A DNA stretch of 64,000 nucleotides. Origin: Phycisphaera mikurensis NBRC 102666 (lineage in GTDB: Bacteria > Planctomycetota > Phycisphaerae > Phycisphaerales > SM1A02). Below, piece after piece: positions 33,932 through 40,704 of the stretch; position 1 is the stretch's first letter; each line of letters opens with the position of its first letter. A program made the translations under genes and the position numbers. Location: assembly GCA_945878575.1 (NCBI GenBank), contig CAMDUB010000003.1, forward strand, positions 1 through 64,000, given 5' to 3'. The notes under the pieces were generated by a model, which had not been told where the DNA came from, did no database searches, and saw nothing but the letters and a program-made list of their open reading frames with translations.

Positions 33932-34002
33932 AAAAGTGTTCCTTGCGGTCAAGCGTAGACTGCCTCGTCGCGCCGCGAGCCCTGCGGCGGGAGGAAGACC
34001 AC

Positions 34003-34953
34003 ATGATGAACACCGTAAACGAAACCTCGCGCAACGACGGCGCGCTGCTGAATGGCGAGCGCGATATCACCACGCAGCACCGGAGTGCCGTTCGCGGCGG
34101 TTCTGTGCTGCTCGGCACGGGCGCGCTGATTGGCGGAGCCTTGGCCGTTCTCTTGGGCGCCGCATTTGCACAGACCCCGGCAGCAAGCCGCCCCGCTGGT
34201 CGCACCAAGCCAAGTCCGGAGCAGATCACCCTGGAGACGCGCGCCGCCATGGAAGTGCTGAATCAATTCGTTGGTCGCTGGGACATCAACGGACAATCGT
34301 TTGACGAGAACGACAAGCCGGTTGGAACGTTTACCGGTAGCGCGCATTATTCATTTGTGATGGCGGACAATTTCTTGATGGGTGAGACCACGCTGACCAG
34401 TGGAAAGTTTGTACTTGATCAGACGGATTACTTTGGATATTCCCCGGGCCTCAACAAGTACACACACGTCATGCTCACTGAGCTTGATAAATCGATGATC
34501 TACCAACAAGGCGAATGGATGGCCGAGGTTGGCTCATTTGTGTTTGCTGTTGCTGCGCCGCTCGACTCGCCCAAAGGAACGCCGCGCAGTGTTGGGCTTG
34601 AGTACGGATTCAGTAATGCCGGTATTGCAGTCACCATGAGCATGCAGAACGGCGTCAAGCCAATGCGCAAGGTGCGCATGCTGCTCACCAAGTCAACGCA
34701 GCCTGCAGCATCAACCGGCCCCGATGGCATGCCTTTGGGCGGCAATGTGCAGTATCAGCAGGGCGACCCAGCCAAGATGCGCGCGCAGATGCAGCAAGCG
34801 GTTGGGCAGATGACTGCGCAAAAACAAGCTATGCAGCAATACATGCAAGGGATGAATATGGGTATGGACAGCCAGATGGACAAGATGATGGATCAACAAA
34901 TGGACCAAGGTGTGACCGATCAAACCCGCGAACTGCTCCGGGGTCCTGAATAA
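34003..34953 (+). CDS. DUF1579-like protein with Met/Gln-rich C-terminal tail
   Basis: EVLNQFVGRWDINGQSFDENDKPVGTFTGSAHYSFVMADNFLMGETTL. Tail MRAQMQQAVGQMTAQKQAMQQYMQGMNMGMDSQMDKMMDQQMDQ. Confidence 0.75.
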   Translation: MMNTVNETSRNDGALLNGERDITTQHRSAVRGGSVLLGTGALIGGALAVLLGAAFAQTPAASRPAGRTKPSPEQITLETRAAMEVLNQFVGRWDINGQSFDENDKPVGTFTGSAHYSFVMADNFLMGETTLTSGKFVLDQTDYFGYSPGLNKYTHVMLTELDKSMIYQQGEWMAEVGSFVFAVAAPLDSPKGTPRSVGLEYGFSNAGIAVTMSMQNGVKPMRKVRMLLTKSTQPAASTGPDGMPLGGNVQYQQGDPAKMRAQMQQAVGQMTAQKQAMQQYMQGMNMGMDSQMDKMMDQQMDQGVTDQTRELLRGPE

Positions 34954-36978: not shown

Positions 36979-37503
36979 ATGGATATTCAGATCCGCGACC
37001 GTAGCCGCCAGCCCATCGGCGTGGCACAGGTGGATCCGGCGGCGCGACCCATGTTGGTCCGTGCAATCGCTGCGGATGGGGCGCCGCATGAAATCTATCT
37101 GGACTGGGAACACGCGCTTGACGATGCGGGGCAGTTGCGGTCGTGCGTGACGTGCGGGTGCCAGCACCTGTATCGGCGCCGAACCCTGCCTCGATTTGCG
37201 CCGTTTGCGCTCGTGCTTGCAGGGGCTGGCGTGGTGGCAGGAGTGCTTGGGTACTCCAGCGACCCCATCGTGCTGGCGGCGCTGGTGGCACTACTGGTAC
37301 TTGACGGCGCAGTGTTGGTGCTCGCCCGTGTGCAGTTGGTCTGCTATCGCTGCGGCAGCGCCTATGGCGGTGCGCCGATCGCTCGATACCACCGCGCCTG
37401 GGACGCTCGTATCGCGGCGGAACCGGACAACCAGCCGGCTGTGCCCAATGAATTGAACGCCCCAAACGATGCTCGCGAGCCATCGCTACCATCAAACCCA
37501 TGA
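36979..37503 (+). CDS. Hypothetical membrane protein with two CxxC-type motifs
   Basis: MDIQIRDRSRQPIGVAQVDP...LRSCVTCGCQHLYRRR...TM...QLVCYRCGSAYGG. Stop overlaps the tmk start (ATGA). Confidence 0.7.
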   Translation: MDIQIRDRSRQPIGVAQVDPAARPMLVRAIAADGAPHEIYLDWEHALDDAGQLRSCVTCGCQHLYRRRTLPRFAPFALVLAGAGVVAGVLGYSSDPIVLAALVALLVLDGAVLVLARVQLVCYRCGSAYGGAPIARYHRAWDARIAAEPDNQPAVPNELNAPNDAREPSLPSNP

Positions 37504-38201
37504 GCGCCCCAGACATTGCGCCAACCGTTGCCGACACCGCATGGATGAGTTCCCTCGGTGGTTGCTTTGTTGTGTTCGATGGCCCGGACGGCAGCGGAAA
37601 GAGCACGCAGTTTCGACGCTTTGCTGATATCGCACGCGCAACCGGGCTTGAAGTGGTGGAAGTGCGCGAACCCGGCGGCACCGCGATCGGCGAGAAGATT
37701 CGAGCCATCTTGCTTGATCCAGCCAATGCAGAGATGACCACGCGCAGTGAAATGCTTTTGTACATGGCCAGTCGCGCGCAACTGTATGAGCAACGAATTG
37801 CGCCCGCGATTGCCGCGGGTGCGCTGGTCCTTGCCGACCGCTTTGTATCAAGCACGCTGGCTTACCAAGGTACCGCTGGTGGAATTGATGAAGAAGAGAT
37901 CTTGGCGGTTGGCAAGGTTGCCACGGGAAATCATTGGCCAGACCTCACAGTGGTGTTTGATGTTGATACTGATGTTGCCATGAAGCGTCTTTCACCACTA
38001 CTTGATCGCATGGAACAGAAGGGTATGGACTTCCACGCGCGCGTTCGCAGTGGATACCTCGCGCAAGCAATGCGTTGGGCGCATCGTTATGCAGTGGTGA
38101 ACGCAAGTGTTGCTCCGGATGCTGTTACACACGGACTGCTTGATGCAGTGGCAACTTGGACAGCGCAGCGATTGGCAACGCGTAGTGGAACGCACAAGTA
38201 A
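37500..38201 (+). CDS. tmk: Thymidylate kinase
   Basis: FVVFDGPDGSGKSTQFRRFADIARATGLEVVEVREPGGTAIGEKIRAILLD; ADRFVSSTLAYQG. Confidence 0.95.
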   Translation: MSAPDIAPTVADTAWMSSLGGCFVVFDGPDGSGKSTQFRRFADIARATGLEVVEVREPGGTAIGEKIRAILLDPANAEMTTRSEMLLYMASRAQLYEQRIAPAIAAGALVLADRFVSSTLAYQGTAGGIDEEEILAVGKVATGNHWPDLTVVFDVDTDVAMKRLSPLLDRMEQKGMDFHARVRSGYLAQAMRWAHRYAVVNASVAPDAVTHGLLDAVATWTAQRLATRSGTHK

Positions 38202-38290: not shown

Positions 38291-38361
38291 CTGCGCGCAT
38301 ACTCACCGCCGTGTGTGGACAGCACGCGGGGCACTGGCTGAACCGCAGATCGTGTGGGGAC

Positions 38362-39600
38362 ATGAATCCCAATGTTGCGCGTCGTGACCGGCTGAGCCGG
38401 TTCGTAGATCTAGCGCGGGTCTATCGTGGTTGGAGTCGGCAAGAGCTGGCATCCAACCTTGGCCGAGATCTCTCCAAAGTAGTTCCTGACAGTGGCAATC
38501 CAAAGCTTGATTTGGTGGTTGCCCTTGCTGATGCGCTTGATTGGAATGTTGGCGATGTAGCACAGTGTGTTTGGGAAGCTCCACCACTGGTATTGGTGCC
38601 TGGTGAAGACTTCGCTGCGCTTGATGCGCAGGCGATTGAATCACATCGAGCAGGTGATTGGCGTGGCTTGATTGCGGGCGGACGGCGACTGTTGGCGTCC
38701 GCAAACACCCCTGCCGAGCGTGCGCGTGCGCTGAATCGGCTTTCTGGTGGGCATGATGGACTTGGGCGCTATTCCAAGAGTCTTGAATGCCTACGCGACG
38801 CACTGTCGCTCTCGCCACTGACACCGCAGTTGGAGCTGATGTTGCGCGTCAACCTGGTGGGGGCGCATTATGCGCTTTGGCATGTCATTGAAGCGCGTGC
38901 CACAGCGCGTGAGTTGGTGGATCGCTTTGAGATGCGACCGCCAAATGGGCGGGTTGAGCGGGTAGCGCAGGCATTTTCACTGATGTACCGCGGGCACTGC
39001 GCACGGCGCGCGATTGGCTCATGCACTGAAGATGCACATCGCAATGCCAATGAAGCATGCGCAGACCTGGAACGAGCCGGCACTTTATTTTCTGCCCTTG
39101 CCCGTGAGTTCGGCGACGATAGTTACGGTGGCGTCGCCAATACTTGCCGCGGTGCTCTACTTGAAGTGCATTGCACGCTTGGATTGCTGGACCCGCTCGA
39201 TGCGGTTTCAACAATCACCGAAGCGCTCGGTGGTGTGGAGGATCCGCTGTTGGCTCCCCCAGGCGACTGGCTGGAAAGTTATGGCTGGTGGTGCATCTTT
39301 GGATGCAATGTGGCAGTCCGTCATTTGGACGATCCGCACTTCCATCGCGCGATGGCAATATTTACCAACAAGGCGATCGAAATCGCGGACCGACTTGGAA
39401 ACTGGTCGCTCCGGGAACGTGCATTTAGCCTTGAGCAGATGCGGCGGGAACGCCTTGAAAAGTCCACTGGCTTTGAGGCCGAGTGGATCCTTGATGAGGA
39501 AGATGTCCGCACGATCGCTGGCACGATGGGTAGGTTTCCATCGTTCCGTGAAACCGGCTGGCGAATCCTTGCCGATGCCCGCATTGTTGAGAAGGTATGA
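38362..39600 (+). CDS. XRE-family HTH regulator with long helical (possibly TPR) C-terminal domain
   Basis: ATG 38362: MNPNVARRDRLSRFVDLARVYRGWSRQELASNLGRDLSKVVPDSGNPKLDLVVALADALDWNVGDVAQCVW (HTH), then alpha-helical repeats (AERARALNRLSGGHDGLGRYSKSLECLRDALSLSPLTPQLELMLRVNLVGAHYALW). Confidence 0.7.
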   Translation: MNPNVARRDRLSRFVDLARVYRGWSRQELASNLGRDLSKVVPDSGNPKLDLVVALADALDWNVGDVAQCVWEAPPLVLVPGEDFAALDAQAIESHRAGDWRGLIAGGRRLLASANTPAERARALNRLSGGHDGLGRYSKSLECLRDALSLSPLTPQLELMLRVNLVGAHYALWHVIEARATARELVDRFEMRPPNGRVERVAQAFSLMYRGHCARRAIGSCTEDAHRNANEACADLERAGTLFSALAREFGDDSYGGVANTCRGALLEVHCTLGLLDPLDAVSTITEALGGVEDPLLAPPGDWLESYGWWCIFGCNVAVRHLDDPHFHRAMAIFTNKAIEIADRLGNWSLRERAFSLEQMRRERLEKSTGFEAEWILDEEDVRTIAGTMGRFPSFRETGWRILADARIVEKV

Positions 39601-39615
39601 AAGGAGGAACACACC

Positions 39616-39981
39616 ATGAAAATGCAATTTGAATTGAGTCGATTGAGTCATAGTTTGCGTGTTCGTCCCTGGGGCACGATGTCGTTTCGTTCTGTGTCGA
39701 TACTTCTGTTGGTGGCATGTGCCGCCTTTGTTCCGTGCGCACCCGTGGTGGCGGAAAGCGGGCGCGGGCGGACTGCTCCGGCGGATGACGAGGGGCCGGC
39801 TCATCGCCGACGTTGGTGGCTTGATGTTTGGACCCATTCCATGCAAGAAACCTGCTTTATCACCTGGATGGATACGCAGTTTGGCAGCAACACATGGCAG
39901 TTGGTCATGCCGGTCCAACAAGTCAATTCCATCTATGTGTGGTGGATTGTGGCGGTGTGGAACCAGCCCAACGGAAAGTGA
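39616..39981 (+). CDS. Small secreted Trp-rich protein
   Basis: Strong SD (AAGGAGG, 39600-39606). Signal-peptide-like MSFRSVSILLLVACAAFVPCAPVVAES. Mature part has eight Trp (RRRWWLDVWTH...ITWMD...NTWQL...YVWWIVAVWNQPNGK). Confidence 0.65.
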   Translation: MKMQFELSRLSHSLRVRPWGTMSFRSVSILLLVACAAFVPCAPVVAESGRGRTAPADDEGPAHRRRWWLDVWTHSMQETCFITWMDTQFGSNTWQLVMPVQQVNSIYVWWIVAVWNQPNGK

Positions 39982-40053: not shown

Positions 40054-40704
40054 ATGGGCGCTAGTGGACATGCAGCAAACGATCATGCTTCGGCACATGC
40101 GCACGCGCATACCCCTGCGCACGAACACTGCCCAGGGTTGCTGCTCTTGGTCTGTGGTCCATCAGGCGTCGGCAAGACCACTATTGTGCATGAACTCATT
40201 CGCCGATTCGGTGGTTTGTTTTCCATCAGTGCCACGACGCGGCAGCGATCGCCGCAAGAACGTGACGGTGTTGATTACTTCTTTATCGATGAGGGGACTT
40301 TTCAGCAGTGGATTGCTGAGGATCGGTTCCTGGAACACGCACAGGTCTTCGGCCGCGCGTGGTATGGAACGCCTGAGGCTCCCGTTCGCGCTGAACTGGC
40401 AAAGGGTCACTTGGTAGTGCTCGATATTGATGTTCAAGGTGCTGACAATGTGCGCAAACGCATCCCCGAGGCACTGGCGATTTTCGTACTGCCGCCCACC
40501 GAACAGGAACTCTTGAAGCGGCTGCGCGCACGTGGTCGTGAGGATGAAGCTGCCATCGAGCGCCGCTTTGCGGAGAGCAAACTAGAGATCACCCGGGCGA
40601 TGCAGGGTCACACCTTCGATGCATTTGTGGTGAACGACACACTGCCGCGCGCTACCGATGAAGTGTCTGCGATTGTCGCGGCACGACTGGCAAAGCAGGG
40701 CTAG
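40054..40704 (+). CDS. gmk: Guanylate kinase with His-rich N-terminal extension
   Basis: LLLLVCGPSGVGKTTIVHELIRRFGGLFSISATTRQRSPQERDGVDYFFIDEGTFQQWI..FLEHAQVFGRAWYGTP. N-terminus MGASGHAANDHASAHAHAHTPAHEHCPG. Confidence 0.93.
   Translation: MGASGHAANDHASAHAHAHTPAHEHCPGLLLLVCGPSGVGKTTIVHELIRRFGGLFSISATTRQRSPQERDGVDYFFIDEGTFQQWIAEDRFLEHAQVFGRAWYGTPEAPVRAELAKGHLVVLDIDVQGADNVRKRIPEALAIFVLPPTEQELLKRLRARGREDEAAIERRFAESKLEITRAMQGHTFDAFVVNDTLPRATDEVSAIVAARLAKQG

Follow-up and report, generated by a model that had tools for sequence, protein, structure and literature searches.

Within the window, by which we mean the whole stretch of 64,000 nucleotides that was analysed, a gene for a 412-residue regulator is followed 15 nt later (39601–39615) by a 121-codon gene for a small exported-type protein, and the gap between them starts with the Shine-Dalgarno sequence AAGGAGG (Table 1), as the original prediction had described. 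The pair is flanked by tmk (thymidylate kinase, 37500–38201) before and gmk (guanylate kinase, ~40063–40704) after. Both genes are real, as conservation shows. The source genome has one copy of the regulator, which is also present in 12 of the 13 other same-genus genomes and in most genomes sampled from its family. In the same-genus relatives the start, Shine-Dalgarno sequence and frame of the partner gene are kept behind it. The exception is genome G008 (locus L048), where the partner has been lost and gmk directly follows the regulator. Among the nearest relatives identity is 96–99% for the regulator versus 53–81% for the secreted protein. Their dN/dS values are ∼0.02 and 0.2–0.3, respectively (∼0.1 within the Trp-rich domain of the latter), so both genes are constrained and evolve under purifying selection. 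Weak second matches of the secreted protein (in G000, G003, G010 and G014, E ∼1e–4 to 6e–4) were rejected; they fall in long open frames, and the one examined, L037, is not an obvious relative. Elsewhere in the window, positions 33943–34953 encode a DUF1579 protein that is probably secreted and whose C-terminal tail is rich in Met and Gln.

Table 1. Features of the regulator–partner locus (window coordinates) and what each assignment is based on
Feature	Position	Strand	Basis and remarks
CATACTC, candidate –10 region of the operon promoter	38298..38304	+	DNA alignment; promoter role inferred
Conserved leader with GTGTGGACA (38313–38321) and GTGTGGGGAC (38352–38361)	38313..38361	+	Alignment; candidate operator or leader element, function inferred
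Regulator gene, HTH-TPR	38362..39600	+	412 codons and stop; ORF and conservation, AlphaFold, Foldseek, dN/dS
N-terminal helix-turn-helix domain, residues 1–71	38362..38574	+	Helix arrangement in model; weak HTH_31/HTH_3 matches below cut-off
About seven TPR-like helix pairs, residues 84–369	38611..39468	+	AlphaFold model; conserved residues on A versus B helices
TPR helix A2 face N125-R126-G129-D132-G133, candidate ligand site	38734..38760	+	Intact in 80/85 with tagged partner versus 8/44 without
Shine-Dalgarno AAGGAGG of partner gene	39601..39607	+	Sequence; conserved in relatives
Secreted partner gene	39616..39981	+	121 aa; ORF, conservation, dN/dS
Signal peptide, likely cleavage after A46 (PVVA/ES boundary)	39616..39753	+	Composition and conservation, heuristic
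Mature helical-hairpin domain, residues 66–115	39811..39960	+	AlphaFold, pLDDT ∼85–95 over most
HSMQE tag, residues 74–78	39835..39849	+	H[ST]xQ[EDG] motif, common to unrelated partners elsewhere

The heptamer CATACTC is invariant in the alignment of 13 same-genus upstream regions. Conservation is strong from this point to the regulator start (38298–38361), and the segment, a candidate operator, holds two GTGTGG-type repeats. An operator word common to several genera was sought, and the best words scored barely above shuffles, none of them convincingly. Comparison of the leader with Rfam gave no match, so an RNA element is not supported.

The AlphaFold model of the regulator (67 homologues, pLDDT 91.7, pTM 0.84) has an N-terminal helix-turn-helix (HTH), with a short predicted recognition helix (residues 36–39), and about seven TPR-like helix pairs. 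Pfam matches to TPR and HTH families (HTH_31/HTH_3) stay below cut-offs, and NCBIfam has no match for the window regulator. The earlier description of an XRE-type HTH with helical repeats therefore rests on the predicted fold. The top Foldseek match in the PDB is the PlcR–PapR7–DNA complex (E 6.9e–5, TM 0.37/0.51), PlcR being a prototype RRNPP receptor; the next ones are mostly LGN-type eukaryotic TPR proteins, which score alike, with 4gyo (Rap–CSF) and 6hu8 (ComR) further down. At such TM values the PlcR match is evidence of architecture and not of common descent, and by sequence search the regulator has no detectable similarity to PlcR or match to an RRNPP subfamily. The TPR fold, whose absence would have spoken against a signalling receptor, is thus present in the model. 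In TPR proteins the A helices line the groove; here near-invariant polar and aromatic residues occupy 22 of 133 positions on the A helices versus 4 of 107 on the B helices, the groove face being read from helix order and spacing in the model.

At the start of the partner a basic n-region precedes a hydrophobic core (about residues 27–46) and a conserved AxA-type site. This N-terminus is signal-peptide-like by composition and conservation, which are what the predicted export is based on, and eight Trp lie in the mature part. A start of this kind, whose lack would have spoken against the original proposal, is present. A lipoprotein is unlikely because the lipobox-like LVAC of the window copy is not conserved in relatives, and a PEP-CTERM-like tail is absent from this protein. 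The signal had been placed in the Trp-rich C-terminal tail; the conserved part proved instead to be the internal HSMQE, which in the AlphaFold model caps the N-terminus of a helix (76–89) that is predicted with confidence and belongs to the folded domain.

Our wider comparison covers 80 named loci plus others drawn from a sample of the class, and in a phylum-wide sample regulator matches were found only within Phycisphaerae. Adjacency was counted on 127 distinct Phycisphaerae regulators with enough downstream sequence: the first downstream ORF has a hydrophobic, signal-peptide-like N-terminus in up to 113 of them, an upper bound for true signal peptides since a few are other genes, for example a CDF transporter. 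When the secreted-domain profile was searched independently in 101 genomes, all 19 strong matches lay directly behind a regulator, and so did the weaker matches in G419 and G385:C19. The expectation that the two genes adjoin in related genomes is therefore borne out across the class. The partners themselves (60–507 aa) differ in type from genus to genus and include Trp-rich helical hairpins of ∼100 aa, Gly/Pro-rich PEP-CTERM proteins and proteins of up to 507 aa. Several distant ones end in a PEP-CTERM-like tail, three of which pass the TIGR02595 cut-off. Tandem regulator copies occur at four loci: at L065, L082 and L176 one copy directly follows the other with the secreted gene behind the second, and at L160 each copy has its own, nearly identical partner. 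Some contigs with the planctomycete locus (L038, L049, L087) are titled, for example, Chitinophaga pinensis, Singulisphaera or Bacteroidia, and these MAG titles look mislabelled.

What the partners share is the short tag H[ST]xQ[EDG]. It reads HSMQE in the window partner, and its other variants include HTVQEE, HTMQEE, HTNQD, HTGQDPVYKS, HSNQGG and HSDQD, in segments such as THSMQETCFITWMD, WMHTVQEEVVRR and LAHTNQDDD. Within 500 nt of the regulator stop it is found on the coding (+) strand at 70 of 80 loci versus 2 of 80 on the – strand. After the tag and signal peptide were masked, the partners fell at E 1e–5 into ∼51 groups with no alignment between groups, and 28 of these 51 mutually unalignable groups contain the tag; for single representatives the count is 24 of 51 versus 0.10 expected from shuffles (maximum 2). 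Its position ranges from just behind the signal peptide to near the C-terminus, and several precursors carry two copies. The core is conserved across the class while its flanks vary, so the hypervariable peptide that had been anticipated was not what we found. As a background we took stretches totalling 1.07 Mb from five genomes with 331 signal-peptide-like ORFs, only one of which, the window partner itself, is tagged. Since the tag is absent from the 330 others, PEP-CTERM-like ones included, we rejected it as a general feature of secretion or of PEP-CTERM proteins; it marks proteins encoded beside the regulator and not secreted proteins at large.

The presence of the tag is linked to one face of the regulator. 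The full set of residues N125, R126, G129, D132 and G133 on helix A2 is retained in 80 of the 85 regulators whose partner is tagged and in 8 of the 44 others (129 regulators), by an automatic motif rule that, here and in the tree tests below, scored the tagged partners of L073 and L111 as lacking the motif. General divergence is not the only source of this contrast, because E305, W309, E268 and R215 are nearly fixed in both sets. On the tree the tag is gained or lost on at least 13 occasions, and the A2 columns exceed random equally conserved columns (permutation P-value = 0.00045), a result weakened by the fact that the columns were picked after the contrast had been seen; a sign test on independent pairs, with few events, gives P-values of 0.03–0.375. 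Among the eight face-intact exceptions L073 is in fact tagged, and five form a clade (L102, L116, L117, L151, L169) in which a CDF-type cation transporter takes the place of the small secreted protein behind the regulator. These five keep the A2 face with no tagged ORF nearby, which counts against reading the tag as a ligand. The regulator of G008, the genome that has lost the partner, carries D132E and R320D. Taken as sequence covariation, the link between tag and A2 face is supportive of receptor–ligand coupling, and is not a proof of it.

How does this pair compare with known systems? RRNPP receptors are ∼250–500 aa long (PMC10075063), a range that includes the regulator with its 412 aa. 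A C-terminal TPR domain of the RRNPP type is present by AlphaFold and Foldseek (PlcR, LGN and Rap structures) with weak sequence profiles, and the putative propeptide gene is directly adjacent, as in RRNPP, 15 nt away here and next to the regulator in relatives as well. A putative counterpart of the N-terminal HTH of most RRNPP receptors (Rap excepted) is predicted by fold, with Pfam below cut-off and a short recognition helix. RRNPP propeptides are exported by the Sec route; for the partner here, Sec-dependent export is a prediction from its signal-peptide-like composition and AxA-type site. On the other hand, RRNPP_Detector sets the propeptide size at 10–100 aa (PMC10075063), versus 121 aa here and 60–507 aa among the partners; RRNPP systems were described from Gram-positive members of Bacillota and from the mobile elements of these bacteria (PMC10075063, PMC12700828), whereas our regulators, in both the class and the phylum samples, belong to Phycisphaerae; and in place of a diverged strain- or species-specific code there is a core conserved across the class. 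Hence we do not file the pair as an RRNPP member: phylum, propeptide size and code diversity do not fit, while receptor size, TPR domain and adjacency do, and the HTH, going by the predicted fold, may.

Like PlcR–PapR of the Bacillus cereus group, an RRNPP system, the window pair combines a predicted HTH–TPR receptor with a small, probably exported partner encoded next to it, and PlcR is its best solved fold match. Unlike PlcR–PapR, it comes from Planctomycetota and not Bacillota, its partner has 121 aa, its tag is internal and conserved where the PapR code is C-terminal and strain-specific, its regulator has no detectable PlcR sequence similarity, and its peptide binding is putative. Rap–Phr, NprR–NprX, Rgg/ComR, PrgX and AimR offer the same likeness, a cytoplasmic TPR receptor with an adjacent secreted propeptide (4gyo and 6hu8 are in the fold list), and the same differences in phylum, in partner size and in the internal, conserved tag. 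With PEP-CTERM/exosortase surface proteins the likeness is limited to the tails of the distant partners; the window partner has no such tail, and the other sampled PEP-CTERM-like ORFs have no tag. Of the RRNPP-like peptide signalling pair originally proposed, the fold, the signal-peptide-like partner and the adjacency stand, and the Trp-rich tail as signal and the hypervariability do not.

We tentatively read the locus, at somewhat below an even chance, as a two-gene operon in which a cytoplasmic HTH–TPR transcription regulator is encoded together with the secreted precursor of its own ligand, working like RRNPP/PlcR–PapR. The operon, the HTH, the groove, the secreted partner, whose conserved short epitope is in some cases doubled, and the epitope–groove covariation all fit a receptor with its own exported ligand. 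In RRNPP systems the mature peptide is re-imported and bound in the TPR groove. We infer for this pair that the tag would be the ligand, and that its release, import, binding and regulatory output would proceed along similar lines. The partner, predicted to be exported, carries the short tag, HSMQE here; proteolysis after export may free a tag-containing peptide; oligopeptide uptake would bring it back into the cytoplasm, where it may bind the concave TPR groove in the A1–A3 region including N125, R126, G129 and D132; and binding would alter how the HTH contacts DNA, the promoter of the operon itself being the probable target and other sites possible ones. This route of release, re-import, groove binding and altered DNA binding is the most economical model. 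SBP_bac_5 proteins, a possible import route, occur in 40 of 41 genomes and are not diagnostic because they are nearly universal. It is more difficult to reconcile with the route that the tag of the window partner caps a helix of a folded domain, which disfavours a loose linear peptide, and that a mere pheromone-precursor role would be odd for tagged partners of 384–507 aa and for the several partners with a PEP-CTERM anchor.

One could suppose instead that the regulator controls a secreted effector, a surface or matrix protein whose tag is read outside the cytoplasm by a protease, a receptor or a partner protein. The PEP-CTERM-like character of many distant partners, the large size of some and the stable mature domain into which the window partner folds in the model would all be expected of such proteins, but the tag tracks the regulator and not secretion, being absent from the 330 other signal-peptide-like ORFs, PEP-CTERM-like ones included, and it covaries with the A2 face of the TPR domain. 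We consider this reading unlikely.

The main alternative to the RRNPP route is that nothing returns from outside: the regulator would bind the tag while the preprotein is still in the cytoplasm, and would thereby match synthesis to export. Neither proteolysis nor import would be needed in a diderm cell, the tight operon would be explained, and partners of 384–507 aa whose tag comes immediately after the signal peptide fit well. Indeed, the large and PEP-CTERM-anchored partners fit at least as well as under the RRNPP route. However, the varying position of the tag, in some partners near the C-terminus, is less expected of such a sensor, and PlcR, the closest solved fold match, acts on the re-imported PapR peptide; this alternative seems to us rather improbable. 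The place of the tag at helix 76–89 might suggest that homologous partner domains simply share a helix N-capping box (S/T-x-x-E). This is very improbable indeed, because H and Q are fixed and yet not part of a capping box, and because the tag turns up, also with G at position 5, in many Gly/Pro-rich partners that cannot be aligned.

Returning to the receptor–ligand reading, its extension to the whole class, with HTH–TPR receptors in diderm planctomycetes reading a fixed H[ST]xQ[EDG] code on otherwise unrelated secreted proteins as intracellular ligand–receptor signalling, is possible and, on balance, somewhat doubtful. If true, it would place RRNPP-like logic outside Bacillota, possibly as an independent invention, and the carriers of the code would range from hairpins of 90 aa to surface proteins of 500 aa. 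In our literature search no paper joining RRNPP and planctomycetes was found. A receptor–ligand pair with a conserved five-residue code in a diderm phylum would mean that RRNPP logic is not tied to the monoderm envelope. It would also open an easy way into the signalling of freshwater and marine planctomycetes, which are abundant and mostly uncultured.

Two groups of loci depart from the common tag. At L161, L162 and L164 (family f19) the gene behind the regulator encodes an exported peptide of 60 aa. Its C-terminus (GWLLNLIVQFLSP) looks amphipathic, the H[ST]xQ tag is absent, and these loci may use a different code. In genus g35 (L158, L160, L170, L190), where several regulators occur per genome, the helical-hairpin domain is kept and the tag has drifted to HGGTMEE, HTGGLEE, HTVNEE and HVSQEQE, which offers a natural test of receptor–ligand co-divergence.
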